A DNA stretch of 64,000 bases, taken from assembly GCF_022829545.1 (NCBI RefSeq), contig NZ_JAKSYM010000313.1, positions 1 through 64,000 of the forward strand, in the 5' to 3' direction. Both the position numbers and the translations under genes were made by a program. This document shows positions 2,123 to 21,518 of the stretch, piece after piece. This DNA is from Methylobacterium sp. J-030. GTDB lineage: Bacteria; Pseudomonadota; Alphaproteobacteria; Rhizobiales; Beijerinckiaceae. The notes beneath the pieces are model-generated. The model did no database searches. It saw only the letters and a program-made list of their open reading frames with translations, and was not told where the DNA came from. How positions within the stretch are numbered: the stretch's first letter is position 1; every line of letters begins with the position of its first letter.

Positions 2123-2145
2123 GCTGTCGCCTCTCGCGCCGGGGG

Positions 2146-3456: not shown

Positions 3457-3529
3457 GGGTGGCTTCTCCCTGGGTGTCGTTGTCGGCCGACCCTTTCAGC
3501 GGGCCGCCGTATGAAGGGCCGGCCGTCGT

Positions 3530-4591
3530 TCAGTTCGGCAGTCGACGCCCGGTCGCGGCGTCGAACAGATGCACGCGGTTCGGTCGCAGAAACACGGTCT
3601 CCCCCGGCCGCTCGGTCACGCGTTCGCGCAGGACGCAGGTGAGATCCTGGCCGACCGCGCGCACCGCCAGCATCGTCTCCGAGCCGGTGGGCTCCACGAC
3701 TACCACCTCGGCGGCGATCCCGTCCGGGGTGAGGTCGAAATGCTCGGGGCGGATCCCGAGCACGAGGGGCCTTCCCTCGGCCCCCGCCGGCACCTCCGTG
3801 AGCGGGATGGTCAGGCCCGCATCGGTGACGAAAACCAGATGGCCGTTCGCCCTGATGTGGCCGGACAGGAAATTCATGGCCGGCGAGCCGATGAAGCCGG
3901 CAACGAACAGGTTGTCGGGCCGGTCGTAGAGGTCGAGCGGCGCGCCGATCTGCTCAACGACTCCGTCGTGCATCACGACGATCCGGTCGGCCATGGTCAT
4001 GGCCTCGATCTGGTCGTGGGTGACGTAGATCGTCGTAGTCTGCAGGCGCTGATGCAGTTCCTTGATCTCGGTGCGCATGGCGACGCGCAGCTTCGCGTCG
4101 AGATTCGAGAGCGGCTCATCGAACAGGAACACCTGTGGGTCGCGCACGATCGCCCGCCCCATGGCGACGCGCTGGCGCTGCCCGCCGGAGAGCTGGCGCG
4201 GATAGCGGTCGAGCAGGTGGGTCAGTCCCAGGATCTGCGCGGCCCGGTTGACCCGCAGTTCGATCTCGGCGGCCGGCGCCTTCCGGATGCGCATCGAGAA
4301 CGCCATGTTCTCGCGCACCGTGAGGTGCGGGTAGAGCGCGTAGTTCTGGAACACCATCGCGATGTCCCGCTCCTTGGGCGGCACATCGTTCACGACCCGC
4401 TCGCCGATGCGGATCTCTCCGCCGGAGATGTTCTCCAGCCCGGCAATCATTCGCAGGAGCGTCGATTTTCCACAACCCGACGGACCGACGAGGATGACGA
4501 ATTCCCCATCCCGGATGTCTACCGACACACCGTGAAGGATGTTCGTCGATCCGAAAGCCTTGCGAACCTCGCGGATTCCCACCGAGGCCAT
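3530..4591 (-). CDS. ABC transporter ATP-binding protein, UgpC/MalK family
   Basis: This is the cytoplasmic ATPase that powers the importer, 353 aa, the usual MalK/UgpC length. Walker [10 protein letters not shown] is at 36-44, the Q-loop glutamine at about 82, the LSGGQ signature at 134-138, Walker B VFLFDEP at 154-160 and the switch histidine at 192. The C-terminal ~120 residues form the MalK-type regulatory (TOBE/OB) domain, with VLGIRPEHF diagnostic of this subfamily. A strong AGGAGG ribosome site sits upstream of the ATG at 4591. It is the first gene of the minus-strand operon, so the operon promoter should lie in 4592-4844, shared with a divergent plus-strand gene. Confidence 0.95.
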
Positions 4592-4627
4592 GCTTCCTCC
4601 TGATCAAGGCCGCTCTGTCGGCGACTC

Positions 4628-4643
4628 TCTGAATACAGTACAC
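4628..4643. promoter_or_regulatory. Candidate operator in the divergent ABC / FAH-family gap
   Basis: The gap 4592-4844 separates two divergent genes. Around 4630-4643 it carries CTGAATACAGTACAC, a partly dyadic AT-rich island in an otherwise GC-rich gap. The core TGAATACA recurs at 12112-12119, upstream of the FAD/Fe-S oxidase. GntR-family repressors of the FCD type often bind short dyads of this flavour, and three such regulators lie nearby; assignment to one of them is inference only. Confidence 0.25.
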
Positions 4644-4844
4644 GGGAGCGTGAGCGGGAAAGCAAGGCTTCACCTTCATCATCGCGCAGATTATCCCGCT
4701 TCTGTCATTCCGCCCCGGCGGAGCGGGTGACGGGACGGTCGGGGTGAAACGGCGCGCCAGCCTCATCGGTCGTCCGGGGTGCTAAGGCTGCGCCGCCCCG
4801 GCCCGGCAGAAGGCCGCGGCCGATCGAGCAGGGAACGAAGCATC

Positions 4845-6038
4845 ATGGCGTTATCCGGTCTCGACGCGTGCGCGATCCTGCCCGCCGACGGGTGCCGCGG
4901 CTCGCTCGTCGGCCGGGTCTGGCGCCCTGACGCGGGGGGACCCAGCGTCGTGGCGATCCGCACCGATGCGTCGGGCGAAGGGCGCGTGATCGACGTCACG
5001 CCCCGCTTCCCGACGGTGAGCGACCTGTGCGAGCAGCCCGATCCCGCCGCCGCCCTGCGCGGCGCGGCGGGCGAGGATCTCGGCGGCCTCGACGCGATTC
5101 TCGCCAACACGCCGCCGGACGCACGCGACCCGAAGCGGCCGTGGCTCCTCGCGCCGGTCGATCTCCAGGCCCTGAAGGCGGCGGGCGTCACCTTCGCCAC
5201 CTCCATGCTGGAGCGGATCATCGAGGAGCGGGCCCGGGGCGACCTCGCCGCCGCCGCGGCGATCCGCGCCGAGGTCGAGCGCCTGGTCGGCCAAGATCTG
5301 CGCCGGCTCAAGCCCGGCTCGGCCGAGGCCATGGTGCTCAAGGAAGTGCTGGTCGGTCAGGGCGCCTGGAGCCAGTATCTCGAAGTCGGCATCGGCCCCG
5401 ATGCGGAGATCTTCACCAAGGCCCAACCGCTCTCGGCGGTGGGCTGCGGAGCGGATGCCGGCCTCCATCCGGACTCGCACTGGAACAACCCGGAGCCGGA
5501 GGTCGCGCTGGCCGTCAGCTCCGATCAGCGCGTGGTCGGCGCGACGCTCGCCAACGACGTGAACCTGCGCGATTTCGAGGGCCGCTCGGCCCTGCTCCTC
5601 GGCAAGGCCAAGGATAACAACGCCTCCTGCGCGCTGGGGCCGTTCCTGCGCCTGTTCGACGCGACCTTCGACCTCGACGCGATCCGGCGCACCACCGTGA
5701 CCCTGGAGGTGACCGGCGTCGACGGCTTCCGCATGGAGGGTGCCTCGCCGCTTGCCGAGATCAGCCGCGATCCCGACGAGCTGGTGGCGGCCCTGATGGG
5801 GCAGACGCATCAGTATCCGGACGGCGCGCTGCTGCTCCTCGGCACGATGTTCGCGCCGATCCAGGACCGGCACGGGCCCGGCCTCGGCTTCACCCATGTC
5901 GAGAACGACCGGGTCGTGGTGGCGAGCCCGGAACTCGGCAGCCTCGTCAACCGCATGCGCCCGTGCGATGCCTGCGAGCCCTGGATCTTCGGCACCCGCG
6001 CGCTGATGCGCAATCTCGCGGCGCGCGGGTTTCTGTGA
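4845..6038 (+). CDS. Fumarylacetoacetate hydrolase family protein
   Basis: This is a cytoplasmic enzyme of the FAH superfamily, 397 aa from the ATG at 4845. Family members hydrolyse or dehydrate 2-keto- or diketo-acids using a divalent metal. Features seen: EVGIGPDAEIFTKAQPLSAV in the middle; HWNNPEPEVAL with the acidic metal-ligand pattern; NDVNLRDFEG; and a C-terminal GLGFTHVENDRVVVASP. It is longer than classic 280-aa FAH proteins, with an N-terminal domain of about 150 residues, resembling the group found in sugar-acid (pentonate-type) pathways. A start at 4779 is open but adds a basic, unconserved-looking leader. It is followed after 46 bases by a FAD dehydrogenase, suggesting a two-gene operon for a 2-hydroxy/2-keto acid. 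Exact substrate unknown. Confidence 0.8.
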   Translation: MALSGLDACAILPADGCRGSLVGRVWRPDAGGPSVVAIRTDASGEGRVIDVTPRFPTVSDLCEQPDPAAALRGAAGEDLGGLDAILANTPPDARDPKRPWLLAPVDLQALKAAGVTFATSMLERIIEERARGDLAAAAAIRAEVERLVGQDLRRLKPGSAEAMVLKEVLVGQGAWSQYLEVGIGPDAEIFTKAQPLSAVGCGADAGLHPDSHWNNPEPEVALAVSSDQRVVGATLANDVNLRDFEGRSALLLGKAKDNNASCALGPFLRLFDATFDLDAIRRTTVTLEVTGVDGFRMEGASPLAEISRDPDELVAALMGQTHQYPDGALLLLGTMFAPIQDRHGPGLGFTHVENDRVVVASPELGSLVNRMRPCDACEPWIFGTRALMRNLAARGFL

Positions 6039-6084
6039 CACAGCGAGCGCCGTGAGCCCCGACCGTTTCCGCCGAGACCTGCCG

Positions 6085-7452
6085 ATGACGAACGCCGCCC
6101 TCCTCGACCGCTTGGCCGCGCTCGTCGGGCCGTCCGGCCTCGTAATCGGCGATGAGTTGCGTCAGCGCTCGGCGAACTGGACGCGCCCGACCGAGCCCTG
6201 CGCGGCGTTCGCCCTGGTCCGTCCGCGCAGCACCGCCGAGACGAGCGCCGTGATGGCCGCCTGCCACGCGGCCGGCGTCGCGGTGGTGCCCCGTGGCGGC
6301 GCCACCGGCCTCGTCGACGGGACCTTGTGTGCGCCCGACGAGATCACCCTCTCGACCGAGCGCATGACCCAGATCGAGCCGGTCGATCCCCTCGGCATGA
6401 CGGTGGTGGTCGGCACCGGCGCCAGTCTGGAGAGCGTCCAGAACGCGGCGACCGAGAACGGCCTGTTCTTCCCCCTCGACCTCGGCGCCCGCGGCTCGGC
6501 GACGGTCGGCGGCGCGATCTCGACCAATGCCGGCGGTCTGAGGGTGCTCCGCTACGGCATGATGCGCGAGATGGTCCTCGGGCTCGAAGCGGTGCTCGCC
6601 GACGGCACGATGGTGTCGTCGATGCGCCCGCTGATCAAGAACAACACCGGGCTCGACCTGAAGCAGCTCTTCATCGCCACCGAGGGGACGCTCGGCATCG
6701 TCACCCGTGCGGTGCTGCGGCTGCGTCCGGAGCCGGCCGGCTACGCCACCGCACTGATCGCCTGCCCCGGCGTCGACGACGGCGCACGGGTGCTGCGCGC
6801 GGCGCAGAGTGCCTTCCAGGGCCGCGTCTCCTCCTTCGAGGGCCTGTGGCCGGACTTCTATCGCGTGATGACCGCCCCCGGTCGGGCCACCGCGCCGCTC
6901 GGCCACGACTACCCGTTCTACGCGATCATCGAGATTGAGTGCGTTCCGGACGAATCCGAGCGGTTCCTCGGTCTGCTGGAAGGGCTGATGGGCGAGGGCA
7001 CGATCCTCGACGCCGCCATCGCCTCGTCCGAGGAACAGCGACGCGGCATGTGGCGCATCCGCGACCGAGTGGAGCACCTCAACGCCGACGGGATCGAGCG
7101 CGCCTTCGACGTCAGCGTCCCGCTAGCGAAGATGGACGGGTACGTGCGCGGTGCACTCGACCGCCTCGCCGCGATTCCGGGTTGCCGGGCCGTCGTCTAC
7201 GGACACATCGGCGACAACAACCTGCACTGGAATACCACCCGCCTCGACGGTGCTGGCAACGCGGCGATCGATGCAGCGCTCTACGAGCCGCTGGCGGCGC
7301 TCAACGGCTCGGTCTCGGCCGAGCACGGGATCGGACTTGAGAAGCGGGGCAAGCTGCCTCTGTCGCGCTCGCCCGAGGAAATTGCGGCGATGCGGCTGAT
7401 CAAGCGTGCGCTCGATCCGGACAACCTGCTGAACCCCGGCAAAATTTTTTGA
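6085..7452 (+). CDS. FAD-binding oxidoreductase, GlcD/D-2-hydroxyacid dehydrogenase type
   Basis: This is a flavoprotein of the vanillyl-alcohol-oxidase/GlcD family, 455 aa. It probably oxidises a D-2-hydroxy acid to the 2-keto acid and passes electrons to an acceptor. The N-terminal FAD-binding half has VVPRGGATGLVDG and the SATVGGAISTNAGG segment. The C-terminal half ends with YGHIGDNNLHWN (metal/substrate histidines), SAEHGIGLEKRG and the family-typical DPDNLLNPGKIF terminus. A GTG at 6052 would add 11 residues; the ATG at 6085 is preferred because it starts just before the conserved helix. Its position after the FAH-family gene suggests it makes the keto acid that the FAH enzyme handles, or the reverse order. 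Confidence 0.9.
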   Translation: MTNAALLDRLAALVGPSGLVIGDELRQRSANWTRPTEPCAAFALVRPRSTAETSAVMAACHAAGVAVVPRGGATGLVDGTLCAPDEITLSTERMTQIEPVDPLGMTVVVGTGASLESVQNAATENGLFFPLDLGARGSATVGGAISTNAGGLRVLRYGMMREMVLGLEAVLADGTMVSSMRPLIKNNTGLDLKQLFIATEGTLGIVTRAVLRLRPEPAGYATALIACPGVDDGARVLRAAQSAFQGRVSSFEGLWPDFYRVMTAPGRATAPLGHDYPFYAIIEIECVPDESERFLGLLEGLMGEGTILDAAIASSEEQRRGMWRIRDRVEHLNADGIERAFDVSVPLAKMDGYVRGALDRLAAIPGCRAVVYGHIGDNNLHWNTTRLDGAGNAAIDAALYEPLAALNGSVSAEHGIGLEKRGKLPLSRSPEEIAAMRLIKRALDPDNLLNPGKIF

Positions 7453-7456
7453 TGAT

Positions 7457-7747
7457 GTGGCAATGACGGTTCGGCTGGCGGTGCGGCTCACGCCCCGCGG
7501 TGGGCGCGATGCTGTCGAGGGTTGGGCTCGGGACGAGAAAGGTCAGCCCTACCTTAAGGCCCGCGTCGCTGCCCCACCGGTGGAGGGTGCCGCCAACGCC
7601 GCGCTGGCGAAGCTGATCGCCAAGGCGCTGAAGGTGAGCCGGGGGGCAGTGCGGATCGCGGCGGGGGATCAGAGCCGGCTGAAGATCCTGGAGATCGACG
7701 GGATCGCGCAGGCGGATCTGGAGAGGGTGTTCGGCAAAATCAAATAA
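7457..7747 (+). CDS. DUF167 / YggU family small protein
   Basis: This is a 96-aa protein of the DUF167 (YggU) family, conserved in bacteria but without an established function. The family pattern is clear: RLTPRGGRDAVEGW at the N-terminus, LKARVAAPPVEGAANAAL in the middle, then VRIAAGDQSRLKILEI. The start is GTG at 7457 or ATG two codons later at 7463. It begins 4 bases after the FAD dehydrogenase stop, so it is probably co-transcribed, though functional linkage is doubtful because this family usually sits beside housekeeping genes. Confidence 0.88.
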   Translation: MAMTVRLAVRLTPRGGRDAVEGWARDEKGQPYLKARVAAPPVEGAANAALAKLIAKALKVSRGAVRIAAGDQSRLKILEIDGIAQADLERVFGKIK

Positions 7748-7877
7748 AACCATAAACACGCCTGCGCCTCGTCTGCGGATGTCCGTCGTTCATTGTGTTT
7801 TCCGCGCAGAGTCCGGAGTCCGTGCATTCCTTCACAGGTCCACCGCATCAACTCATTTTTCCCGCTCACGGGACGAG

Positions 7878-8276
7878 TCAGTTCTCAACTCGCAATTTTG
7901 GTCCGCGACGAAACTCTTCGAGATTTGCGCTGACCAACATCGAGCCGGGCGCCCGGCATTGAGATGCGATGATGAGATCATTTTGACCCATCGACGTTCC
8001 TGCCCATTCGAGGGGTGCTCAGATCTCGCCGTCATGGCGATCGGCCGACGTGCCGAGCGGCAGGATGGTAATCGTTCAGCGCACGGCCTCGGCGCGTTCC
8101 GTCAACCGCCTGGAGCCCTTCCGCGCCACTCCGTACCGAACTTCGGCAGCAACGACGATGCTTGTCGCGACCTCGGCTGCACGCTCTACCATAACAGCGG
8201 CAACGCGCTCTTTTTAGCCGTGCCTGATCAGATAGGAGAGGATGTTGGTGTCGAGGAAATAAGCGGGGTCGTCACT
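7878..8276 (-). pseudogene. vapC: vapC toxin relic (PIN-domain ribonuclease), no start, multiple stops
   Basis: Read on the minus strand in one unbroken frame from 8276 to 7878 (133 codons, the normal VapC length), the translation is a PIN-domain toxin: AYFLDTNILSYLIRHG, then VVAAEVRYGVARKGSRRL, ITILPLG, GQNDLIIASQCR and a C-terminal EEFRRGPKLRVEN. The catalytic acidic residues of the PIN domain (D of LDTN, E of AEVRYG, D of QNDL) survive. Stops interrupt it at 8216-8214 (TAA), 8078-8076 (TGA), 8021-8019 (TGA) and 7880-7878 (TGA where VapC proteins commonly have Trp). No start codon remains in frame near the vapB stop. There is no indel, so decay has been by point mutation plus loss of the start. 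Intact VapC proteins cleave tRNA or rRNA; this one cannot be made. Confidence 0.85.
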
Positions 8277-8518
8277 TAAAGGACAACATCCTCGATGTCG
8301 AGTTCCGGGATCTCGTCCAGCGCATCTTCGGGACCGAGCGGCTCCAGCGTGCGCACGCGTTCGATAAGGCGCAGTCTCGGACGGATCAGAAGGCTGCCAT
8401 CCGCCTGCCGCGCGATCGTCACCTCATCGCTGGGCCGTTCGAACGCCTTGGGAATACGAATGGCCTAGCTCCGGTTGTTCCGGGAAACCCTCGCGACGCG
8501 CTCCAAGGCCGCCTCCAT
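8276..8518 (-). pseudogene. vapB: vapB antitoxin relic (AbrB/MazE-type), one nonsense codon
   Basis: The minus-strand frame 8518-8276 (81 codons) reads as a VapB antitoxin. An N-terminal swapped-hairpin DNA-binding segment has the pattern RNNRS-stop-AIRIPKAFERP, followed by DEVTIARQADGSLLIRPR and an acidic C-terminal tail EIPELDIEDVVL that would fill the toxin's active site. The single nonsense codon is TAG at 8467-8465, at the position where VapB proteins have Gln (NRSQAIRIP), consistent with one CAG-to-TAG change. The stop of this frame abuts the vapC relic, the normal vapBC arrangement. Re-initiation downstream would lack the DNA-binding segment. Confidence 0.8.
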
Positions 8519-8607
8519 CGACATAGGCCAGAACATCTGTCGCAGCTACGGGCGTCGCAAGCTCGGGGGCGGCGCAGCATGCACTCCGCCCAAGCCCCGA
8601 ACCGTTT

Positions 8608-9537
8608 TCAAAACGCGACCTTGTCGCCCCCCTTCAGCGCGAGCATCTCCCGCGCCTCGTCGGGCGAGGCCACTGCGAGCCCCAGCCCCTCGATGATCGC
8701 GCGCACGCGCCAGACCTGCGCGGCGTTGGTCTCGGCGAGCTTGCCCGGCCCGTCCCAGAGACTGTCCTCCAGCCCGACGCGCACGTTCCCGCCCATCGCA
8801 GCCGCCATGGCGGCGATATTCATCTGGTTGCGGCCCGCGCCCAGCACCGACCACCGGTACTGATCGCCGAACAGCCGGTCGGCGGTGCGCTTCATGTGCA
8901 TCACGTCGTCGGGATGCGCGCCGATGCCGCCCTGAAGCCCGAACACCGTCTGGATGAACAGCGGCGCCTGAACGAGACCCCGGTCGAGAAAGTATTTGAG
9001 ATTGTAAAGATGCGCGGTGTCGTAGCACTCGAACTCGAACTTCGTGCCGTTCGGCCCGCAGGTCGTCAGAATGTGCTCGATCTGCCCGAACGTGTTGCGG
9101 AAGATGATGTCCTTGTTGCCGAGATAGTCCCGCTCCCATTGGTGCTTCAGGTCCTTGAACCGGTCGAGCATGCCGAACAGGCCGAAATTCATCGAACCGA
9201 GATTCAACGAGGCGACCTCCGGCTTGAAGGTGGCGGCCGGCCGCACCCGCTCCTCGATCGACATGGTCGGCGCGCCGCCGGTGGTGAGATTCACCACGCA
9301 GGAGGAGCGCTGCTTGATCACCGGAAGGAACGGCGCAAAGGCCTCGGGCGACTGATCGGGCTGGCCGGTTTCCGGGTTGCGGGCGTGCAGGTGGACGATC
9401 GCCGCCCCGGCCTCGGCGGCGCCGATCGCGGCATCGGCGATTTCTTCCGGCGTGACCGGAAGATATGGTGACATGCTGGGCGTGTGGATCGCGCCCGTCA
9501 CCGCGCAGGTGATGATGACTTTCCGCTGTGCGGCCAT
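8608..9537 (-). CDS. Beta-keto acid cleavage enzyme (BKACE, DUF849)
   Basis: This is a 309-aa TIM-barrel, zinc-dependent enzyme of the BKACE family, which condenses a beta-keto acid with acetyl-CoA to give acetoacetate and a new CoA ester. The N-terminal VIITCAVTGAIHTPSMSPYLP is diagnostic. The HLHARNPETGQPDQS segment (His49 and His51) supplies zinc ligands, and the C-terminal VRVGLEDSLWDGPGKLAETN is the usual family ending. Two bases separate it from the dehydrogenase encoded upstream, so the two are translationally close. Together they fit oxidation of a 3-hydroxy acid to a 3-keto acid followed by cleavage. The BKACE subfamily specificity (3-keto-5-aminohexanoate, dehydrocarnitine or other) cannot be set by eye. 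Confidence 0.93.
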   Translation of the reverse strand: MAAQRKVIITCAVTGAIHTPSMSPYLPVTPEEIADAAIGAAEAGAAIVHLHARNPETGQPDQSPEAFAPFLPVIKQRSSCVVNLTTGGAPTMSIEERVRPAATFKPEVASLNLGSMNFGLFGMLDRFKDLKHQWERDYLGNKDIIFRNTFGQIEHILTTCGPNGTKFEFECYDTAHLYNLKYFLDRGLVQAPLFIQTVFGLQGGIGAHPDDVMHMKRTADRLFGDQYRWSVLGAGRNQMNIAAMAAAMGGNVRVGLEDSLWDGPGKLAETNAAQVWRVRAIIEGLGLAVASPDEAREMLALKGGDKVAF

Positions 9538-9539
9538 GC

Positions 9540-10463
9540 TCAATCCCCTCGTGTAGCCTTGTGGGCCCGGAGCGCCGCGAGCCGCGCGTCGCGGCGGCGC
9601 ATGCGCGCGGGCAGATCGGGTTTGTTGGGCCAATGGGCCAGGATCGCCCCCGTGGCCGGCGCCTCGTAGACCGAGGGCGGCGCTGGATCGGCGGCGAGGC
9701 GCTTGTAGAAATCGGTGTAGCGCGCGCAGTAATCGGCGATGCCGCCCGGTGCGTTCAGTTCGATCGTCTCGAACGGCCCCATGAAGCTCCAGCGCAGCCC
9801 GAGCCCGTCCGAGACAGTCCTGTCGAGATCCTGCGGCGTCACGTAGCCCTCGGCGGCAAGCCGGAACGCCTCGGCCAGCAGCGCGCCCTGCAACCGATTG
9901 AGGATGAAGCCCTCGATCTCCTTCAGCACGGTGATCGGCACCTGACCGATCTGCTCGTAGACCACGCGCGCCCGGGCCAGGGCGGCCGGGGCGGTCCAGG
10001 GCGCGCCGGAGATCTCCACGAGCGGGATCAGATGCGGCGGGTTCACCGGATGGCCGATCAGGCAGCGCGCCCGGCCCGGCAGGTCCGCGGTGAACAGCGA
10101 ACACCGGATCGCCGATGAGGATGAGGCCAGGATGGCCTCGGCCGATGCGCGCGCATCGAGTTCGGCGAACAGCGCCTGCTTGGCGGCCAGCGTCTCCGGG
10201 CCGTTCTCCTGCACGAAGCCGACACCGTCCAGACACGCCGCGAGGGTCGAAAACGCCCGGATCCGCAGCCCGGCCGCCTCCGGATCGGGGCAGAGTCCGT
10301 TCCCGGCCAGCATGTGCAGTCCTTCGACGCAGAGCGGGATCGCCGCCTCGGCAACGCCGTCGGCGGTATCGAACAGCCGGACATCCCAGCCGGCGCGGGC
10401 AAAGATCATCGCCCAGGCCCGGCCGATCAGGCCCACGCCTACGATCGCGACGCTGCCGGTCAT
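9540..10463 (-). CDS. 3-hydroxyacyl-CoA-dehydrogenase-like enzyme (L-gulonate 3-dehydrogenase / lambda-crystallin type)
   Basis: This is a 307-aa NAD-dependent dehydrogenase. The Rossmann motif VAIVGVGLIGRAWAM is at the very N-terminus from the ATG at 10463; an upstream in-frame start at 10520 would place 19 odd residues before it. SSSSAIRCSLF, IGHPVNPPHLIPLVEISG and the LKEIEGFILNRLQGALLAEA segment match the lambda-crystallin (CRYL1) / L-gulonate 3-dehydrogenase branch more closely than fatty-acid enzymes, as does VSDGLGLRWSFMGPFETIELN. L-carnitine dehydrogenases are the other close relatives. It pairs with the adjacent BKACE enzyme and is divergent from a GntR regulator. Confidence 0.85.
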   Translation of the reverse strand: MTGSVAIVGVGLIGRAWAMIFARAGWDVRLFDTADGVAEAAIPLCVEGLHMLAGNGLCPDPEAAGLRIRAFSTLAACLDGVGFVQENGPETLAAKQALFAELDARASAEAILASSSSAIRCSLFTADLPGRARCLIGHPVNPPHLIPLVEISGAPWTAPAALARARVVYEQIGQVPITVLKEIEGFILNRLQGALLAEAFRLAAEGYVTPQDLDRTVSDGLGLRWSFMGPFETIELNAPGGIADYCARYTDFYKRLAADPAPPSVYEAPATGAILAHWPNKPDLPARMRRRDARLAALRAHKATRGD

Positions 10464-10511
10464 GACAGCCCTCCCCGGCACCCATTCACGGCAGCCCACA
10501 CCTGCCGCCGC

Positions 10512-10521
10512 TGTGATCACA
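10512..10521. promoter_or_regulatory. Palindromic operator candidate in a divergent promoter region
   Basis: TGTGATCACA at 10512-10521 is a perfect 10-base palindrome followed at once by GATCAC (10522-10527), which repeats half of it. It lies in the 100-base gap between the divergent dehydrogenase/BKACE genes (minus) and the GntR gene (plus). This is the usual place for an autoregulatory GntR operator controlling both directions. Binding by the adjacent regulator is inference. Confidence 0.5.
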
Positions 10522-10563
10522 GATCACTAGCGGGATCGCGCCCATGTCGTCTAGTCTTGAGCC

Positions 10564-11277
10564 ATGGCGTCCCTGGCGGCCCTGGCCGACCTCCCGCAGC
10601 TGGAACGACGAACCCTCACCGACACCGCCTACGCGGCGCTGTCGGACCTCCTGGCGTCGGGTCGGCTTGCCCCGGGCGACAGGCTGTCCCTACGCCAGAG
10701 CGCGGCGGCCTTCGGGGTCTCGGTGATGCCGGTGCGCGAGGCCGTGAGCCGCCTCGTCGCGGAGGGCGTGCTGGAGGTTGCACCGGCGCGCATCATCCGC
10801 GTGCCCATCATGGGCGCAGGGGCGTTCCGGGCGCTCGCCGAGACGCGCATCGCCGTCGAGGGCATCGCGACCGCACGCGCCGCGGAGCGCCGGACGGAGG
10901 CGGAACTCGACGCGATCCGCCGGGCCGAGGCGGCGTTCCGAGCTGCCGCGGAATCCCCCGAGCCCGATCGGATCAGGGCTGTCCAGCTCAACCGCGACCT
11001 GCACTTCGCGATCTACGATGCCTGCGGGTTGCCCCCGCTCACGCAGATCATCGGCCGCCTGTGGCTGAAAGCCGGGCCGGTCATCAACCTGGATCTGCGC
11101 GCCTGTCCGGAGCGGCTGCACCAGGGCATCGCACTCAAGCGCCATGCCGAAGCCTGCGCGGCAATCGCGGCACGCGACGGCTTGGCCGCCTCCGCGGCGA
11201 TCGCAGCCGACATCCGCGAGGCCGCCGACTTCATCCTGGCCCGCGGCACGTTGCGGGCGGAGCCCGAGGAGGACTGA
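10564..11277 (+). CDS. GntR-family transcriptional regulator (FCD/FadR subfamily)
   Basis: This is a 237-aa DNA-binding regulator. The winged helix-turn-helix occupies roughly residues 18-80, with RLAPGDRLSLRQSAAAFGVSV and MPVREAVSRLVAEGVLEVAP as recognition-helix and wing. The C-terminal FCD ligand-binding domain is all-helical and carries NRDLHFAIYDA and an RHAEACAAIAARD segment with metal-binding-type histidines. It is divergent from the dehydrogenase/BKACE pair and 2 bases ahead of an SDR gene, so it probably represses both transcripts and is released by a pathway acid. The palindrome in the intergenic gap is a likely site. Confidence 0.93.
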   Translation: MASLAALADLPQLERRTLTDTAYAALSDLLASGRLAPGDRLSLRQSAAAFGVSVMPVREAVSRLVAEGVLEVAPARIIRVPIMGAGAFRALAETRIAVEGIATARAAERRTEAELDAIRRAEAAFRAAAESPEPDRIRAVQLNRDLHFAIYDACGLPPLTQIIGRLWLKAGPVINLDLRACPERLHQGIALKRHAEACAAIAARDGLAASAAIAADIREAADFILARGTLRAEPEED

Positions 11278-11279
11278 TC

Positions 11280-12047
11280 ATGGATCTCGGATTGGCAGGC
11301 TTGCGCGTCCTCGTCACGGCGGGGGCCGCGGGGATCGGGCGCGCGATCGTGGATGCCTTTCTGGAGGAAGGTGCCCGGGTCTTCGCCTGCGACATCGACC
11401 AGGAGGCCCTGGACACCCTGGCGGCCACAGTCGGACGCAGCCGCACCGATGTGGCCGATCGGGCCGCGGTGGCGGCGATGATGGAGGCCGCGCTCGATCA
11501 TCTCGGCGGCCTCGACGTGCTCGTGAACAATGCCGGGATCGCCGGACCGACCGGCCGCGTCGACGAGATCGCCCCGGAGGCCTGGGATCAGTGCATGACC
11601 GTCTGCCTGACCAGCCAGTTCAACTGCGCGCGCCTCGCCGTGCCGCACCTCCGGCAGAGCGCCAACGCATCGATCGTCAACCTGTCCTCGGCGGCCGGCA
11701 AGTTCGGATTCGCCCTGCGCAGTCCCTACGCGGCGGCGAAATGGGGGGTGATCGGCTTCACCAAATCGCTCGCCATCGAACTCGGCGGTGACGGCATCCG
11801 GGTCAACGCGATCCTGCCGGGACTGGTCGCGGGCGACCGCCAGCGCCGGGTGCTCGAAGCGAAGGCGCAGCAGCAGGGCACCAGCTACGCCGAGATGGAG
11901 GCTCGGGCCTTCTCGTTCGTGTCGATCAAGGACTACGTCACCGCCCGCCAGCTCGCCGATCAGGTGCTGCTGCTCTGCTCGGAGCGTGGCCGGACCATTT
12001 CCGGCCAAGCGATCTCCATCGATGGCGACACGCGGATGCTGTCCTGA
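11280..12047 (+). CDS. SDR-family NAD(P)-dependent oxidoreductase
   Basis: This is a classical short-chain dehydrogenase, 255 aa. The cofactor motif is slightly unusual, VTAGAAGIGRAI, with Ala where most have Gly. VLVNNAGIAGP follows, with the catalytic serine in NLSSAAGKFG and the YAAAK active-site motif in SPYAAAKWG. The C-terminus GRTISGQAISIDGDTRML is typical of the family. It starts 2 bases after the GntR stop, so it is in the same transcript and likely part of the same pathway as the divergent BKACE/dehydrogenase genes. The substrate is presumably a hydroxy acid or sugar acid, unproven. Confidence 0.9.
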   Translation: MDLGLAGLRVLVTAGAAGIGRAIVDAFLEEGARVFACDIDQEALDTLAATVGRSRTDVADRAAVAAMMEAALDHLGGLDVLVNNAGIAGPTGRVDEIAPEAWDQCMTVCLTSQFNCARLAVPHLRQSANASIVNLSSAAGKFGFALRSPYAAAKWGVIGFTKSLAIELGGDGIRVNAILPGLVAGDRQRRVLEAKAQQQGTSYAEMEARAFSFVSIKDYVTARQLADQVLLLCSERGRTISGQAISIDGDTRMLS

Positions 12048-12146
12048 ACTGTGTTCACCCCGCGCCGGAAGCGCGCAGGGGGATCGGATCGATTTCCGAA
12101 TGGCTGAATTTTGAATACACTTCCCTCAAGGGGCCTGGGCTGCTGT

Positions 12147-12153
12147 GGGAGGA
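12147..12153 (+). promoter_or_regulatory. Ribosome binding site that fixes a GTG start
   Basis: GGGAGGA at 12147-12153 stands 7 bases before the GTG at 12161. It decides the start of the long FAD/Fe-S dehydrogenase, since no in-frame ATG lies nearby upstream. Confidence 0.7.
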
Positions 12154-12160
12154 TGCGGAC

Positions 12161-15106
12161 GTGACGGGAACGAGGCCTCAGACAGCGCCGCGCGCTGCCG
12201 CGCGGCTCGATGCCGGCCTGGCGCGCAGGCTGGCCGAGCAACTGCAGGGCGAGGTGCGCGTCGATGCCTTTACGCGCGGCCGCTACAGCACCGACGCGTC
12301 GATCTACCAGATCATGCCGGCCGGGGTGGTGCTGCCGCGCTCGGCCGCCGACATCGCCGCGACCTTGCGGGTCGCCGCCGAGCACGGCGCGCCGGTGATT
12401 ATGCGCGGCGGTGGAACCTCGCAGAACGGCCAGCCGATCGGCGCAGGACTGGTGGTCGACTGCTCGCGCCACTTCAACGGGATCCTGGCCTACGATCCGG
12501 AGGCCGGCACGATCACGGTCGAGCCCGGCATGGTGCTGGAGCGTCTCAATACCCGTGTGAAGGCCGATGGCTGGTTCTTCCCCGTGGAGCCGTCCACGGC
12601 GACCCGATGCACCGTCGGCGGGATGGCGGGCAACAATTCCTGCGGCGCTCGCTCCCTGCGCTACGGCAAGATGAGCGACAACGTCCTTTCCCTGGACGCG
12701 CTGTTGCATGACGGCGAGGCCTTCACGTTCGGCCTGACTGGCAACACGGTCTCCGGCGTCACCGGCTCGGCCCGGGCTGAGATCCTGGCCGAGCAGGCGC
12801 GCGCCCTCGCGGACGCGCACCGGGACGAGATCGCGGCCCGCTACCCGAAGGTGCAGCGTCGGGTGGGCGGCTACAATCTGGACGCGCTGATCGAGCCGCG
12901 TCCGAACCTCGCGCACCTGTTGGTCGGCTCGGAGGGCACGCTGGCCGCCACCACGGCGGTGACGCTGAAGCTGTCCCGCCTGCCGACGCACAGGGTGATG
13001 GGGGTCTGCCATTTCCCGTCGTTCCGGGCCGCGATGGAGACCACGCGGCACATCGTGGCCCTCGACCCGGTGGCGGTGGAGTTGGTCGACAACAACGTCC
13101 TCGTGCTGGGCGCCGACATCCCGCTGTTCCGCACGACGCTCGCCGACATCACCCGCGGCAAGCCGAACTGCCTGCTGCTCACGGAATTCGCCGGCGATGA
13201 CCGCGATGCACTGGATCGCGACCTGAAGCGTCTCGAATCCTGCATGGCCGATCACGGCTATCCGGACGCGGTCGTCGAGGTCGTGGAGCCGGCCCGGCAA
13301 AAATCCGTCTGGGAGGTGCGCGAGGCCTGCCTCAACATCATGATGTCGATGAAGGGTGACGCCAAGCCGGTGTCGTTCATCGAGGATTGCGCGGTGCCCC
13401 TTGAGCACCTAGCCGACTATACCGATGCGGTCACCGAGGTGTTCACCAAACACGGCACCCGCGGCACGTGGTACGCCCACGCCTCGGTCGGCTGCCTGCA
13501 CGTTCGCCCGATCCTGGACATGAAGGACGGGGGCGACGTGCGCCGGATGCGCGCGATCGCGGAGGAAACCGCCGAGCTGGTGCGCCGGTACAAGGGTTCG
13601 TATTCTGGCGAGCACGGCGACGGGATCTCCCGCTCCGAATACATCGCGCCGCTGTTCGGCCCCGTCCTGACGAGCGCCTTCGAGACCGTGAAGGACGCCT
13701 TCGACCCCGACAACCGTCTCAATCCCGGCAAGATCGTCCGCCCGCTCGCGATGGACGACCGGTCGCTGTTCCGGTTCAAGCCGGACTACGCGGTCACGCA
13801 GCCGCTGGAGACGGCCCTCGACTGGTCCGACTGGGGCGGCTTCGGAGCCGCGGTCGAGATGTGCAACAACAACGGCACCTGCCGGAAGCTCGTCGGCGGC
13901 GCCATGTGTCCGTCCTACCGGGCGACCCGGGAGGAGCAGCACCTGACGCGGGGCCGGGCCAACTCCCTGCGGCTCGCCATGTCCGGGCAGCTCGGGAAGG
14001 ACGCCTTCACCAGCCCCGAGATGAAGCGGACCCTCGATCTCTGCGTTTCGTGCAAGGCCTGCCGGCGGGAATGCCCGACCGGCGTCGACATGGCCAAGAT
14101 GAAGATCGAGTTCCTGCACCACTACCATGCCCGGCACGGGCTGCCGCTGCGGGAGCGGCTGATCGCCCTGATGCCGATCTATGCCGGGGCGGCAGCCAGG
14201 TTCGCGCCGCTCCTGAACCTGCGGGACCGGCATCCGGCCCTGGCCCGGCTATCCGAGAAAGTCGCCGGGCTCTCGGCGAAGCGCTCCCTGCCACGCTGGC
14301 GCCGGCCATGGCGCGAGCAGGGCGAGCCCGCCCATCCGGGCGACGTGAAGGGCGATTTTCGCGACCTCATCCTGTTCGGCGATACGTTCAACCGCGCCTT
14401 CGAGCGGGAGAATCTGGAGGCGGCCGAGCGGGTGCTCGCCGCCGCGGGCTATCGCCTGCACCGCGTTCATCCGGACCGCGGGCGGCGTTCCCTGTGCTGC
14501 GGACGGACCTGGCTCGCCTCCGGTCAGACCGACCGGGCGCGGCAGGAGGCGCGGCGGACGCTCGACACGCTCCTCCCCTTCGTCCGGGCGGGGGCACGGG
14601 TGGTCGGTCTGGAGCCGTCCTGCCTTCTCACCTTCCGGGACGAGTTCTCCGCCCTCCTCCCGGGGTCGGATACCGCCCTGCTCGCCGGACAATCCATGCT
14701 GTTCGAGGAGTTGCTCGCTGCCGACCTCGCGGCGGGGCGGATCGCGCTGCCGCTGGCGGATCAGCGCGGCCGCGTGGCCCATCTGCACGGACATTGCCAT
14801 CAGAAGTCCTTCGGCCTGATGGGATCGGTGGAGACGGTGCTGCGGGCTGTTCCGGGGCTCGATGTGCGGGTGATCGAGTCGAGTTGCTGCGGCATGGCGG
14901 GTGCCTTCGGCTACAGGCCGGAATCGATCGAGACCTCCTTCGCCATGGCCGAACTGGCGCTGTTCCCGGCCCTGCGCGCCGCGGCGCCGGGTGATCTCGT
15001 CGTCGCCGACGGGACGAGCTGCCGCCATCAGATCCAGGACGGGCTCGGACTGCACGCGGAACATGTGGCATGCGTGCTCGATCGAGCCCTCACGCCTCGA
15101 CACTGA
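12161..15106 (+). CDS. Two-part FAD and Fe-S 2-hydroxyacid dehydrogenase (GlcD-GlcF/YdiJ-like fusion)
   Basis: This 981-aa protein fuses a GlcD-type flavin domain (about 1-540) to a GlcF-type iron-sulphur domain. The flavin part shows VIMRGGGTSQNGQPIG, TVGGMAGNNSCG, HLLVGSEGTLA, SGEHGDGISRSE and DPDNRLNPGKIV. A 4Fe-4S site begins near residue 567 (CNNNGTCRK...MCP) and a second near 627 (CVSCKACRRECP). Two cysteine-rich CCG motifs follow, near 778 (LCCGRTW) and 908 (SSCCGMAG). This is the architecture of D-lactate / D-2-hydroxyglutarate dehydrogenases such as YdiJ, which feed the respiratory chain at the membrane. The GTG start has a strong ribosome site. It lies between the SDR gene and a GntR regulator, so it probably oxidises a 2-hydroxy acid from this catabolic block. 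Confidence 0.92.
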   Translation: MTGTRPQTAPRAAARLDAGLARRLAEQLQGEVRVDAFTRGRYSTDASIYQIMPAGVVLPRSAADIAATLRVAAEHGAPVIMRGGGTSQNGQPIGAGLVVDCSRHFNGILAYDPEAGTITVEPGMVLERLNTRVKADGWFFPVEPSTATRCTVGGMAGNNSCGARSLRYGKMSDNVLSLDALLHDGEAFTFGLTGNTVSGVTGSARAEILAEQARALADAHRDEIAARYPKVQRRVGGYNLDALIEPRPNLAHLLVGSEGTLAATTAVTLKLSRLPTHRVMGVCHFPSFRAAMETTRHIVALDPVAVELVDNNVLVLGADIPLFRTTLADITRGKPNCLLLTEFAGDDRDALDRDLKRLESCMADHGYPDAVVEVVEPARQKSVWEVREACLNIMMSMKGDAKPVSFIEDCAVPLEHLADYTDAVTEVFTKHGTRGTWYAHASVGCLHVRPILDMKDGGDVRRMRAIAEETAELVRRYKGSYSGEHGDGISRSEYIAPLFGPVLTSAFETVKDAFDPDNRLNPGKIVRPLAMDDRSLFRFKPDYAVTQPLETALDWSDWGGFGAAVEMCNNNGTCRKLVGGAMCPSYRATREEQHLTRGRANSLRLAMSGQLGKDAFTSPEMKRTLDLCVSCKACRRECPTGVDMAKMKIEFLHHYHARHGLPLRERLIALMPIYAGAAARFAPLLNLRDRHPALARLSEKVAGLSAKRSLPRWRRPWREQGEPAHPGDVKGDFRDLILFGDTFNRAFERENLEAAERVLAAAGYRLHRVHPDRGRRSLCCGRTWLASGQTDRARQEARRTLDTLLPFVRAGARVVGLEPSCLLTFRDEFSALLPGSDTALLAGQSMLFEELLAADLAAGRIALPLADQRGRVAHLHGHCHQKSFGLMGSVETVLRAVPGLDVRVIESSCCGMAGAFGYRPESIETSFAMAELALFPALRAAAPGDLVVADGTSCRHQIQDGLGLHAEHVACVLDRALTPRH

Positions 15107-15165
15107 ATTGCCGGACACCTACACAGAGATGACAGGCACGCGGCCCTGCCATGCGTCGGGGGACC

Positions 15166-15846
15166 ATGAACAAGATCGAGTCCGGGATCGGCATCAACCG
15201 CCGCTACCTGCATGACGAGGTGGCGGACCGGATTCGCGAATTGATCCGATCCGGTGAGATGGAGCCGAAGGCGCGGATCAACGAGGGTGAGCTGACGGAG
15301 CGCTTCGGCATCTCGCGCACGCCGCTTCGGGAAGCGATCAAGATCCTGGCCACGGAAGGTCTGCTCGAACTCCTCCCCAATCGCGGTGCGCGCGTCGCCA
15401 GCATTTCCGAAATCGAGCTGGAGGAGATGATGGAGGTGATCGCCGGCCTGGAGGCCACAGCCGGCGATCTGGCTTGCCGCACGATCGGCGACGCGGAGAT
15501 CGACGCCATCACGACGGACCACGCAGCGATGGTGGCCGCTTGGAAGGCAGGCGACGAGGCCGGCTACTTCGGCCGCAACCGCCGCATCCACGAGGCCATC
15601 ATGGCGGCCAGCCGCAACACGGTGCTGGCGAACCTCTACGCGAGCCTGTCGGGGCGGATCCAGCGGTCGCGCTACTCCGCCCACCAGACCCCGGACCAAT
15701 GGGCCCGCGCGGTTGCCGAACACGAGCGCATGATCGAACTCCTGCGCGCCCGCGACGGCGGATCGCTCGCCATCCTCATGCGCGAGCATATTCGGGGAAA
15801 GAAGTCGGTCATCGCCGCCCATTACGGACCCGCCGAGGCGGTCTGA
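15166..15846 (+). CDS. GntR-family transcriptional regulator (FCD subfamily)
   Basis: This is a 226-aa regulator. The N-terminal winged helix (RYLHDEVADRIRELIRSGEMEPKA... then GELTERFGISRTPLREAIKIL) is followed by an FCD domain with NRRIHEAIMAASRN and AEHERMIELLRARD metal/ligand residues. The start at 15166 follows a GGGGGA ribosome site; an ATG at 15151 is also in frame. It lies 59 bases downstream of the large FAD/Fe-S dehydrogenase on the same strand, so it may regulate that gene, and it is convergent with another GntR gene. Confidence 0.92.
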   Translation: MNKIESGIGINRRYLHDEVADRIRELIRSGEMEPKARINEGELTERFGISRTPLREAIKILATEGLLELLPNRGARVASISEIELEEMMEVIAGLEATAGDLACRTIGDAEIDAITTDHAAMVAAWKAGDEAGYFGRNRRIHEAIMAASRNTVLANLYASLSGRIQRSRYSAHQTPDQWARAVAEHERMIELLRARDGGSLAILMREHIRGKKSVIAAHYGPAEAV

Positions 15847-15847
15847 T

Positions 15848-15872
15848 CACGACCGGCTCACGGCGGGTCGTG
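15848..15872. terminator. Bidirectional terminator between convergent GntR genes
   Basis: The 27-base gap between the two convergent genes consists almost entirely of one hairpin, CACGACC (15848-15854) and GGTCGTG (15866-15872) with an 11-base loop. There is no T-run on either side, so it would be a weak intrinsic or Rho-assisted terminator. Confidence 0.5.
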
Positions 15873-15873
15873 G

Positions 15874-16527
15874 TCAGGCCGCATTCGGCGCCCGCAGGCC
15901 GGCCACGAGATCGGTGAACCTGTCGCCCTGCACGATGACGTGGCTGCGCAGGGCGTCGGCCGCGCCCGTCGCATCACCGGCCAGGATGGCGGCCACGATC
16001 GCCTCGTGTTCGGCGAGCGATTGCGGAACGCGCTGGCGCACCCGCAATTGCAGGCGTCGGTACGGCGCCAGCCGGCGGTGCAGCGAGAGGGCCTGCTCCG
16101 CCAAGAAGTCGTTGTGGCTCGCTCGATATACCACAGTGTGGAATACGTAATTCTCGGCGTAATAGGCTTCGGCATCCTCCGTCGTCATGGCGGAGCGGCA
16201 GCCCGAGAGGGCGGTCCGCAGGGCGGCCGCATCGTCGGACGTGAGGCGCCTGGCCGCGAGCCGGCCGCAGGCGGCCTCGATCTCCGCCATGGTCTCGAAC
16301 ATGGCGAGCAACCGGTGCGGTTCGGGAGCGCTGACGATCGCGCCGCGCCGCGGCTTCGACTGGATGAGGCCGGTGGCGGCGAGTTGCAGCAGCGCTTCCC
16401 GGATCGGCGTGCGTGAGACGCCGAACCGCGCCGCGAGCTGATTCTCATCGAGCCGCGATCCGACGGCGAGTTCGCCCGAGACGATCTCCTCCTCGATCGA
16501 CTGCTTCAGACGTTGCGCGTGGTTCAT
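15874..16527 (-). CDS. GntR-family transcriptional regulator (FCD subfamily)
   Basis: This is a 217-aa regulator on the minus strand. Its DNA-binding part contains SGELAVGSRLDENQLAARFGVSR and TPIREALLQLAATGLIQSK; the FCD effector domain has YVFHTVVYRASHNDF and SLAEHEAIVAAILAGD. It is divergent from the TRAP transporter operon, with 473 bases between, making it the natural candidate regulator of C4-dicarboxylate-like uptake there. It differs clearly from the other two GntR proteins in this block, so it is not a recent duplicate. Confidence 0.92.
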   Translation of the reverse strand: MNHAQRLKQSIEEEIVSGELAVGSRLDENQLAARFGVSRTPIREALLQLAATGLIQSKPRRGAIVSAPEPHRLLAMFETMAEIEAACGRLAARRLTSDDAAALRTALSGCRSAMTTEDAEAYYAENYVFHTVVYRASHNDFLAEQALSLHRRLAPYRRLQLRVRQRVPQSLAEHEAIVAAILAGDATGAADALRSHVIVQGDRFTDLVAGLRAPNAA

Positions 16528-17000
16528 CCCTCCGATTCCCTATCGTGCGCGCGGATGCTCGCCGAAGCGGTCCCCGACCCCGTGTCGGCCGGCTCGGCGA
16601 ACGAGCGCGCTTCAGGAGGCGCAGCGTTGTCTCCGGCGACAACGTCGCGATTCAGCATCGCGCCCCAACCAGGCCGCAGCTGAGGTCCGTATCCCGATGT
16701 GACCCCGCAGGGCTTGCAGACGACGCCGCTTTCTCGGTCTCCGCAGCGCCAGGATGCCGCCGCATCGATAGGATGGAATGTAAGGCGGCTCTCCCACATC
16801 GGTGATTAATCCCGTCGCAGCCCGTATCGGCGAGCGATCCGGAACGAATCTCGGCGTCAACCGATCGCTCTGGACGACTTCGCAATATGCTTCCGGATTG
16901 ACAAGATATACAAGGCAGTCCTTCATGCATACATAACGATGGCGTGATTGATGCGCCGCACAACAGTCGAGCCGCAATGTTTGCGGTGCGGGAGAGACAG
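16528..17000. other. Gene-free control region upstream of the TRAP operon
   Basis: This 473-base gap separates the divergent GntR gene and the TRAP operon. No reading frame here looks like a protein. The half nearer the TRAP genes is distinctly AT-richer (16860-16945) and contains a -35-like TTGACA at 16898-16903, an overlapping AGATATACAAGG dyad-like stretch, and TGCATACATAACG (16926-16938). That is what a GntR-controlled promoter would look like. A precise -10 cannot be fixed. Confidence 0.45.
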
Positions 17001-18023
17001 ATGACGCCCACTCGTCGCTCGTTGGTTGCAGCCACGCTTGCAGCGCCGGCGCTGCTCAGATTAGGTCTGGGGTCAGCGCAGGCAGCCACGACGCTGAAGC
17101 TGTCGCATCAGTTTCCGGGCGGAACCATCGACGAGGGCGATTTCCGCGACCGCATGTGCCGGAAGTTCGCGAAGACGGTCGCCGAGCGCTCGAAGGGCGC
17201 GCTCGAAGTGCAGGTCTATCCCGGCTCCTCGCTGATGAAGACCAACGCCCAGTTCGGCGCCATGCGCAAGGGCGCCCTCGACATGTCGCTCTACCCGAGT
17301 CCCTACGCGGGCGGCGAGGTGCCCGAGATGAATATCGGGCTGATGCCGGCGCTGGTGACATCCTACGCGCAGGCTGTGGCCTGGAAGAACGCACCGGTGG
17401 GTCGCAAGCTGACGGAGATTCTCGATGCCAAGGGCATCATCCTCGTCTCCTGGGTCTGGCAGGCGGGCGGCGTCGCGAGCCGCGAGCGGCCCCTCGTCAC
17501 TCCGGCCGACGCCAAGGGCATGAAGGTCCGCGGCGGCTCGCGCGAGATGGACATGATGATGAAGGAGGCGGGTGCGGCCACCCTCTCAATCCCGTCGAAC
17601 GAGTCCTATGCGGCGATGCAGACGGGGGCATGCGACGCCGTGATCACCTCGTCGACCAGCCTGATCTCGTTCCGCCTGGAGGAACTGGCCAAGGCGCTGA
17701 CCTCGGGCCGGGAGCGCTCCTACTGGTTCATGCTCGAACCGATCATGATGTCCAAGATCGTGTTCACAGGTCTGCCGAAGGACCAGCAGGACCTGATCAT
17801 GGCGGTGGGTGGCGAGCTCGAAGCCTTCGGGCAAGCGGGCGCCAAGGAAGACGATACCCGCGTCGAAGAGATCTTCTCGAAGGCCGGCGCCAAGGTCTCG
17901 CAACTCGATGAGAAGACGCTGGGCGAATGGCGCGAGCTTGCCCGGGGCACGGCCTGGAAGGACTACGCGGCCAAGAACGCGAACTGCGCCGAGTTGCTGA
18001 AGCTCGCGGAGCAGGTCGCGTGA
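17001..18023 (+). CDS. TRAP transporter substrate-binding protein (DctP family)
   Basis: This is the periplasmic receptor of a TRAP transporter, 340 aa. A Tat-type signal (TPTRRSLVAATLAAPALLRLG) ends near SAQAA. The mature protein begins TTLKLSHQFPGG, typical of DctP proteins. It has the conserved arginine-bearing segment KGMKVRGGSREMDMM that holds the substrate carboxylate, and QTGACDAVITSSTSL. The start at 17001 has a GGGAGAGA ribosome site; an in-frame ATG at 16944 would hide the signal peptide. It is the first gene of a three-gene operon with the DctQ and DctM membrane subunits. Substrates of the family are organic acids. Confidence 0.94.
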   Translation: MTPTRRSLVAATLAAPALLRLGLGSAQAATTLKLSHQFPGGTIDEGDFRDRMCRKFAKTVAERSKGALEVQVYPGSSLMKTNAQFGAMRKGALDMSLYPSPYAGGEVPEMNIGLMPALVTSYAQAVAWKNAPVGRKLTEILDAKGIILVSWVWQAGGVASRERPLVTPADAKGMKVRGGSREMDMMMKEAGAATLSIPSNESYAAMQTGACDAVITSSTSLISFRLEELAKALTSGRERSYWFMLEPIMMSKIVFTGLPKDQQDLIMAVGGELEAFGQAGAKEDDTRVEEIFSKAGAKVSQLDEKTLGEWRELARGTAWKDYAAKNANCAELLKLAEQVA

Positions 18024-21495: not shown

Positions 21496-21518
21496 CGGAT
21501 GCGTCTCCTGGCGTCGCG

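Follow-up and report, generated by a model that had tools for sequence, protein, structure and literature searches.

The locus described here lies in a window of 64,000 nucleotides from Methylobacterium sp. J-030 (assembly GCF_022829545.1, contig NZ_JAKSYM010000313.1, positions 1 to 64,000 of the forward strand). It consists of two divergent gene pairs that encode a beta-keto acid cleavage enzyme (BKACE) with a CRYL1-like 3-hydroxyacid dehydrogenase (HAD) on one side, and a GntR regulator with a short-chain dehydrogenase (SDR) on the other. The features, in the numbering of the window, are as follows.

8608-9537, minus strand: BKACE, 309 amino acids (PF05853, 364 bits; NCBIfam NF053538, 547 bits)
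9540-10463, minus strand: CRYL1-like HAD, 307 amino acids (Pfam 3HCDH_N and 3HCDH)
10511-10522, no strand: probable operator CTGTGATCACAG, with the core GTGATCAC at 10513-10520 and a half site GATCAC reaching to 10527
10564-11277, plus strand: GntR regulator (FCD), 237 amino acids (PF00392 and PF07729)
11280-12047, plus strand: SDR, 255 amino acids (PF00106, adh_short)

All four reading frames are intact. The BKACE gene starts 2 bases past the stop codon of the HAD gene, and the SDR gene starts 2 bases past that of the GntR gene. The gap between the divergent pairs, from the HAD ATG at 10463 to the GntR ATG at 10564, is 100 bases long. The four genes, their coordinates and a perfect palindrome in the gap had been named in the initial annotation of this DNA, and checks of the open reading frames, the Pfam matches and the sequence bore them out.

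The gene set was compared with the published clusters for the oxidation of 2-deoxyribonate, which is the sugar of DNA in oxidised form. In Pseudomonas simiae WCS417, the cluster PS417_07240-07265 encodes GntR, SDR, BKACE, a lactonase and two MFS transporters (Price 2019, PMC6365646). According to the available text of that paper, the SDR is a deoxyribonate dehydrogenase whose purified form yields ketodeoxyribonate (the oxidised position was not determined), a mutant in the BKACE gene does not grow on deoxyribonate, and the conserved palindrome GTGATCAC occupies positions -47 to -40 relative to the start of GntR. Pseudomonas and Paraburkholderia/Caballeronia loci, selected by the published gene order, were used as stand-ins for the sequences of P. 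simiae, Paraburkholderia bryophila and Burkholderia phytofirmans (loci, genomes and contigs used in this work carry numbers with L, G and C, respectively). The P. simiae type was represented above all by a Pseudomonas contig, L057, which encodes GntR, SDR, BKACE, an SMP-30 lactonase and two MFS transporters, with GTGATCAC at -47. The window shares with the P. simiae cluster the genes for GntR, SDR and BKACE, the adjacency of GntR and SDR, and the motif GTGATCAC some 47-51 bases ahead of the start of GntR (-51 to -44 in the window). It differs in having a divergent HAD-BKACE transcript and the CRYL1-like HAD itself, whereas the lactonase and the MFS pair of the P. simiae cluster are missing from the window cluster. 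The P. bryophila and B. phytofirmans clusters, as far as they are described in the available text of PMC6365646 and represented by L050, L042 and L053, resemble the window in the family of their SDR and in the Pfam and NCBIfam families to which their BKACE belongs. Unlike the window, they have an AraC regulator, an MFS transporter and, at the place of HAD, a second, FabG-like SDR; their BKACE is about 54% identical to that of the window. In L053, the two SDRs are in swapped order relative to L042 and L050.

The window SDR, which has YAAAK at residue 150, was the top match of the host genome to the L057 SDR, scoring 230.8 bits against 115.5 bits for the next protein, that is, two-fold ahead. 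Its relationships were determined with a tree of 64 hand-chosen rows, including four other SDRs of the host genome; this tree replaced an earlier one of 135 rows, in which the deep branches had been left unresolved. The window SDR grouped with those of the P. simiae and P. bryophila types in a clade of 53 rows (support 100/99), and the four other host SDRs fell outside. Its membership of the deoxyribonate dehydrogenase family is firm, and we predict that it is a 2-deoxyribonate 3-dehydrogenase; the final step, from the family to this exact substrate, is the one that we infer.

The window BKACE passed the cut-off (430 bits) of NF053538, the model named '3,5-dioxohexanoate:acetyl-CoA acetone transferase'. 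It is 75% identical to BKACE15 (PDB 8RIO) and 67% identical to the L057 enzyme. The alignment revealed that the catalytic residues E171 and R254 of BKACE15 correspond to E170 and R253 of the window protein. Among the positions looked at, these two as well as H49, H51, E258 and D259 (BKACE15 numbering) do not differ between the window, BKACE15 and L057, and positions 115, 121, 122 and 260 vary among the three. A BKACE tree of 93 rows, built by a quick method with approximate likelihood ratio (SH-aLRT) support only, placed the window, P. simiae-type and Caballeronia-type enzymes in one clade of 77 rows (SH-aLRT 100) and left the P. bryophila-like type (L037, L038, L040, L042, L050 and L053) outside it. 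The available text on BKACE active sites gave no residues that place the window enzyme in a published group. The window BKACE is predicted to convert a 3-keto-2-deoxyaldonate and acetyl-CoA into an acyl-CoA (glyceryl-CoA) and acetoacetate.

The palindrome in the gap was then considered. Perfect 12-base palindromes are found 34 times in the window against 33.5 expected from its composition (0.05 per 100 bases), and the idea that the palindrome is unusual as such was rejected on this count. What is remarkable is the exact word CTGTGATCACAG rather than its palindromy: it occurs a single time in the 6.92 Mb genome, where the reversed word has zero occurrences, and it recurs in matching position in related clusters from other families, in loci of Microvirga, Caballeronia, Tardiphaga, Bordetella, Pseudomonas and Comamonadaceae. 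Of the 57 loci that have BKACE, SDR and GntR, 37 carry the core GTGATCAC in the 150 bases before the aligned start of GntR, with 0.26 expected from the density of the motif elsewhere in the same loci; the 37 are not independent cases, since many of the loci belong to near relatives (Caballeronia and the genus of the window).

We conclude that the locus probably represents the known oxidative cluster for 2-deoxyribonate in an alphaproteobacterial version, extended by a CRYL1-like dehydrogenase. In the proposed pathway, the SDR would oxidise 2-deoxy-D-ribonate to a keto acid with NAD, a step for which there is in vitro evidence in the P. simiae counterpart; C3 would be the oxidised position in both enzymes. 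BKACE would let the beta-keto acid react with acetyl-CoA in an exchange that yields glyceryl-CoA and acetoacetate, as has been put forward in print from genetics for the known pathway. Acetoacetate would then be taken up by a CoA-transferase and glycerate by a glycerate kinase, both families being encoded elsewhere in the genome. The CoA-transferase subunit model TIGR02429, which also covers 3-oxoadipate enzymes, has two genome matches above its cut-off, and PF13660 (DUF4147), which we take to be the glycerate kinase of the TtuD/GckA type, has one match (contig C224, 243 bits). The GntR protein would control both divergent transcripts from the palindrome in the gap. The initial annotation had correctly drawn the logic of a 3-hydroxy acid oxidised to a 3-keto acid and cleaved by BKACE with acetyl-CoA, and this is supported here. 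It had cast the CRYL1-like enzyme in the oxidising role, leaving aside the SDR, which is the member with a P. simiae counterpart backed in vitro. Its proposal of a new pathway and substrate is not supported: a matching known operon, which it had named as grounds for refutation, was largely found in that of P. simiae, in gene set, regulator and operator, and it is the exact substrate at the window locus that we infer. A supposed orphan pathway thereby becomes a testable member of a published one, and attention goes to the CRYL1-like dehydrogenase, widespread in these clusters, as the enzyme still lacking an assignment.

To sample the neighbourhoods, SDR loci, L057 among them, were collected in one contig scan, and the best 80 of at least 574 confirmed stretches were used. 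A BKACE at least 58% identical to that of the window was present in 53 of the 80, a more distant one in 13 and none in 14, nine of which are on shortened stretches. HAD with at least 40% identity accompanied 31 of the 53 SDR+BKACE loci. Sampling by BKACE was added because these 80 loci had been found via the SDR. A search of 61 related genomes matched 24, and regions from 19 of the 23 other than the host were examined: 15 had all four genes, two were cut or incomplete (L117 and L118), and two had BKACE alone. In the latter two genus relatives (L112 and L113), BKACE is 88-89% identical to that of the window and no HAD, GntR or SDR of this type is on the stretch; L112 lies near a contig end. A wider search of 387 alphaproteobacterial genomes matched 83 of them at 99 places. 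We examined 40 of the 98 places outside the window, namely the 20 best matches and a hand-picked set of 20 from further down. The 20 best (69-82% identical) included eight with SDR and HAD, one with SDR only and one with HAD only; the loci with neither are L148, L150, L151, L154, L155, L157, L161, L163, L164 and L166. At the 20 lower places, no SDR exceeded 35% identity, and HAD was matched at 53% in one (L175) and at 37-38% in two. When three further BKACE loci were scanned with Rfam, a tRNA was all that turned up.

Several results weigh against the assignment to 2-deoxyribonate. The window SDR is 46% identical to the L057 SDR. Within the 53-row family, a subclade of 25 rows (95/91) unites the P. 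simiae, P. bryophila and Caballeronia types, and the alphaproteobacterial lineage of the window is separate (92/97); the family also contains SDRs with no BKACE seen nearby (L008, L078 and L083). The exact substrate could therefore differ. The window GntR is 34% identical to the GntR of L057 and, at 100.7 bits, only the second match to it in the host genome, behind another gene with 111.9 bits, which argues against simple orthology with the P. simiae-type regulator. At the place upstream of GntR, 20 of the 57 clusters, including that of Paracoccus denitrificans (L010), are without GTGATCAC; one of these, Ponticoccus L006, has an imperfect version. AkgR of Rhodobacter sphaeroides has the same motif among its binding sites (PMC6365646), so the motif alone cannot name the pathway. 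Likewise, BKACE similarity alone is not diagnostic, because 10 of the 20 best alphaproteobacterial BKACEs have neither SDR nor HAD nearby; since BKACE neighbourhoods vary in this way, the assignment rests on the four genes together with the operator. The Pfam search found no lactonase and no dedicated importer within the window cluster. Some published deoxyribonate clusters are also without a close lactonase homologue (available text of PMC6365646), and the importers near the window cluster by position are of the sugar ABC and TRAP types. The binding protein of the branched-chain-type ABC importer that accompanies this cluster in close relatives has no match in the host genome. Downstream, the profile search of the genome detected no glycerate kinase of the GarK type (PF02595) and no acetoacetyl-CoA synthetase above the cut-off of TIGR01217, and the glyceryl-CoA hydrolase is described as unknown for the deoxyribonate pathway generally (available text of PMC9007349).

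The CRYL1-like HAD, which belongs to the 3-hydroxyacyl-CoA dehydrogenase superfamily, deserves separate treatment. Its best sequence match is lambda-crystallin 3ado (213 bits); a pyridine-carboxylate dehydrogenase scored 115 bits and the 3-hydroxyacyl-CoA dehydrogenase 2hdh 69 bits. HAD passes the model NF004783 with 372 bits against a cut-off of 347. PDB 3ado and 3f3s represent lambda-crystallin/L-gulonate 3-dehydrogenase (CRYL1), with which HAD shares its fold family. Residues S117, H138, E150 and N189, which we take to be catalytic, are identical in all 61 rows of the alignment, which include that of the window and leave out three distant ones (L048, L061 and L074). The product of CRYL1, 3-dehydro-L-gulonate, retains the C2 hydroxyl. 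In this it differs from the BKACE substrates named in the available text of PMC11961710 and PMC6365646, which are unsubstituted at C2. From its sequence, HAD is predicted to be an NAD-dependent 3-dehydrogenase for a free 2-deoxyaldonate. On the simplest reading, it would be a second 3-dehydrogenase that also supplies BKACE with a 3-keto acid, most likely from a free acid and perhaps from another stereoisomer or chain length.

HAD could not be placed in the published deoxyribonate clusters: L052 and L055-L057, all of the P. simiae type, gave no match, and the match in L070 is weak (34%). It is found in the same loci as P. simiae-clade SDRs in three Pseudomonas (L046, L063 and L064), and in L046 the motif GTGATCAC is located directly upstream of HAD-BKACE. 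In L127, the motif lies between GntR and HAD-BKACE, and the one SDR that this stretch encodes shares 34-35% identity with those of the window and L057 and falls outside the SDR family. Salipiger L123 encodes GntR, an ABC importer, HAD and BKACE with an imperfect motif; no SDR match was found on the stretch read, and the other replicons were not searched. The link between HAD and BKACE is not exclusive, because in L124 and L128 HAD occurs without BKACE on the stretch. A search of openly available papers for deoxyribonate since 2019 and for CRYL1-like enzymes with BKACE found no report on the CRYL1-like dehydrogenase of these clusters.

A broader proposal, which we put forward tentatively and hold to be rather doubtful, is that the SDR and the CRYL1-like dehydrogenase, enzymes of unrelated folds, feed one BKACE under one operator in a general salvage of 2-deoxyaldonates of several stereoisomers or chain lengths. 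The reaction of 2-keto-3-deoxy sugar acids with peroxide is a possible source of deoxyribonate (available text of PMC6365646). In this genus, the cluster is part of a conserved sugar-acid island (sugar ABC importer, FAH-type protein, IlvD/Edd dehydratase and FAD oxidases). If the proposal were true, the pathway could there remove the 2-deoxyaldonates that arise by the peroxide reaction, and BKACE15 of Paracoccus denitrificans would have the same natural role.

Among the alternatives to 2-deoxyribonate oxidation, the one that survives best is that the same machinery serves another 2-deoxyaldonate (a C3 epimer, a 2-deoxyhexonate or 3,4-dihydroxybutanoate) in the alphaproteobacterial lineage, with HAD marking the difference. 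The separate sub-lineage of the window SDR is consistent with it, as are the uneven distribution of HAD, present in many SDR+BKACE loci and missing from P. simiae-type loci (with a weak match in L070), and the differing importer types (branched-chain-type ABC, sugar-type ABC, MFS) among the loci. However, the core motif is shared with the P. simiae type, the six BKACE residues named above are shared by the window protein with BKACE15 and L057 (with four other positions varying), and HAD also stands beside P. simiae-clade SDRs in Pseudomonas. We regard this alternative as unlikely.

Another proposal concerns HAD only and is compatible with the 2-deoxyribonate assignment, namely that HAD acts on deoxyribonyl-CoA. 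Price et al. suspected that this is the substrate of a 'beta-hydroxyacyl-CoA dehydrogenase' in P. bryophila and Klebsiella, and the gene so labelled in the P. bryophila cluster has a mild phenotype (available text of PMC6365646). In the window, a family III CoA-transferase and an enoyl-CoA hydratase are encoded about 9 kb away (20683-22739). By the order AraC, BKACE, MFS, X, SDR, however, the labelled protein corresponds to a FabG-like SDR in L042 and L050, and its identification with the CRYL1-like HAD was dropped. Moreover, HAD is far nearer to CRYL1 than to 3-hydroxyacyl-CoA dehydrogenase, and no CoA synthetase or thiolase was found by Pfam among the four cluster genes. Activity on deoxyribonyl-CoA thus seems improbable.

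The NCBIfam name of the window BKACE would point to a 3,5-dioxohexanoate pathway, as in phloroglucinol breakdown. In addition to the score, which is well over the cut-off, 3,5-dioxohexanoate is accepted in vitro by BKACE15 (available text of PMC11961710). The model is also passed by the deoxyribonate-type enzymes of L057 (541 bits) and of the P. bryophila-type loci L053 (506 bits) and L050 (514 bits), so its name does not discriminate, and such a pathway is very improbable here. The carnitine pathway, in which HAD as a carnitine 3-dehydrogenase would feed a dehydrocarnitine BKACE, is scarcely credible: carnitine dehydrogenase belongs to the same superfamily and its two models match HAD weakly, but the scores (156 and 150 bits) fail the cut-offs (414 and 592), and the cluster holds an SDR and a deoxyribonate-type motif. 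The sugar-acid rather than carnitine character noted in the initial annotation agrees with these scores. A reading of the BKACE as the Kce of lysine fermentation was rejected at 231 bits against a cut-off of 382 for NF052387.

The comparison extends to BKACE15 of Paracoccus denitrificans (PDB 8RIO, 8RIP and 9HNF), whose physiological role is called unknown by its authors and whose genetic context is said to suggest aromatic breakdown (available text of PMC11961710). A Paracoccus denitrificans plasmid (L010) encodes a protein identical to BKACE15 over 310 residues, and the gene order at 6955-15137 of this locus, a region left unannotated in the sequence record, is SDR, GntR, ABC ATPase matches, HAD and BKACE. 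The cluster resembles that of the window in having SDR, GntR and HAD together with a BKACE of 75% identity. It differs in that a transporter region is kept between GntR and HAD and that no GTGATCAC was found upstream of its GntR. A deoxyribonate-type cluster offers a natural role for BKACE15, an enzyme used in the synthetic CORE cycle.

The surroundings of the cluster were compared in the genus. In the nine closest relatives with all four genes (L103-L111), BKACE is 93-97% identical and a conserved island is present. Its order is sugar-type ABC importer, FAH-family protein, FAD oxidase, BKACE, HAD, branched-chain-type ABC importer, GntR and SDR, followed by IlvD/Edd, FAD/Fe-S oxidase, two GntR genes and a TRAP importer. 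There are exceptions: L111 gave no FAH match; in G030 (L194), the stretch running from the FAD/Fe-S oxidase to TRAP was not seen; G026 and G013 lack the ABC genes, and G013 also lacks IlvD/Edd. In eight of the nine, the IlvD/Edd dehydratase is located between the SDR and the FAD/Fe-S oxidase side. In more distant genus members (L114-L118, BKACE 74-76%) the island was not seen. The window has neither the branched-chain-type ABC genes nor IlvD/Edd at their place in the island. A swap of the ABC importer for the TRAP importer in the window was rejected, because TRAP stands in the same place in six of the seven relatives that retain the ABC importer. The simpler reading is that the ABC genes, as well as the IlvD/Edd gene that stood between SDR and oxidase, were lost from the window.

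On the BKACE side, positions 231-7452 of the window encode the sugar-type ABC importer, the FAH-family protein and a D-2-hydroxyglutarate dehydrogenase-like FAD oxidase, which are kept beside BKACE in the closest genus relatives. The FAH-family protein scored 64 bits against the 2-keto-3-deoxy-D-arabinonate dehydratase 2q18 and 404 bits against 9kkt. On the SDR side, positions 12161-20043 encode the FAD/Fe-S oxidase (981 amino acids), two GntR genes and the TRAP importer, in an order kept in eight of the nine closest relatives.

The host genome encodes further BKACEs. A second, unrelated cluster, at 1808-7184 of L196 (host contig C250), comprises a putative cyclase, a CRYL1-superfamily dehydrogenase, an SDR, a BKACE and an ABC binding protein. 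This BKACE is 32% identical to that of the window, and both it and the dehydrogenase score below the cut-off of every NCBIfam model listed. The L196 cluster is a better candidate for an unassigned BKACE pathway than the window locus. Two more BKACEs are encoded at 5584-6426 of L198 and 6315-7226 of L197. One of the two passes the 3-oxoadipate model NF053568 (467 bits against 350); the other passes none of the models listed and is flanked by an Iso_dh-family protein and an MFS transporter.

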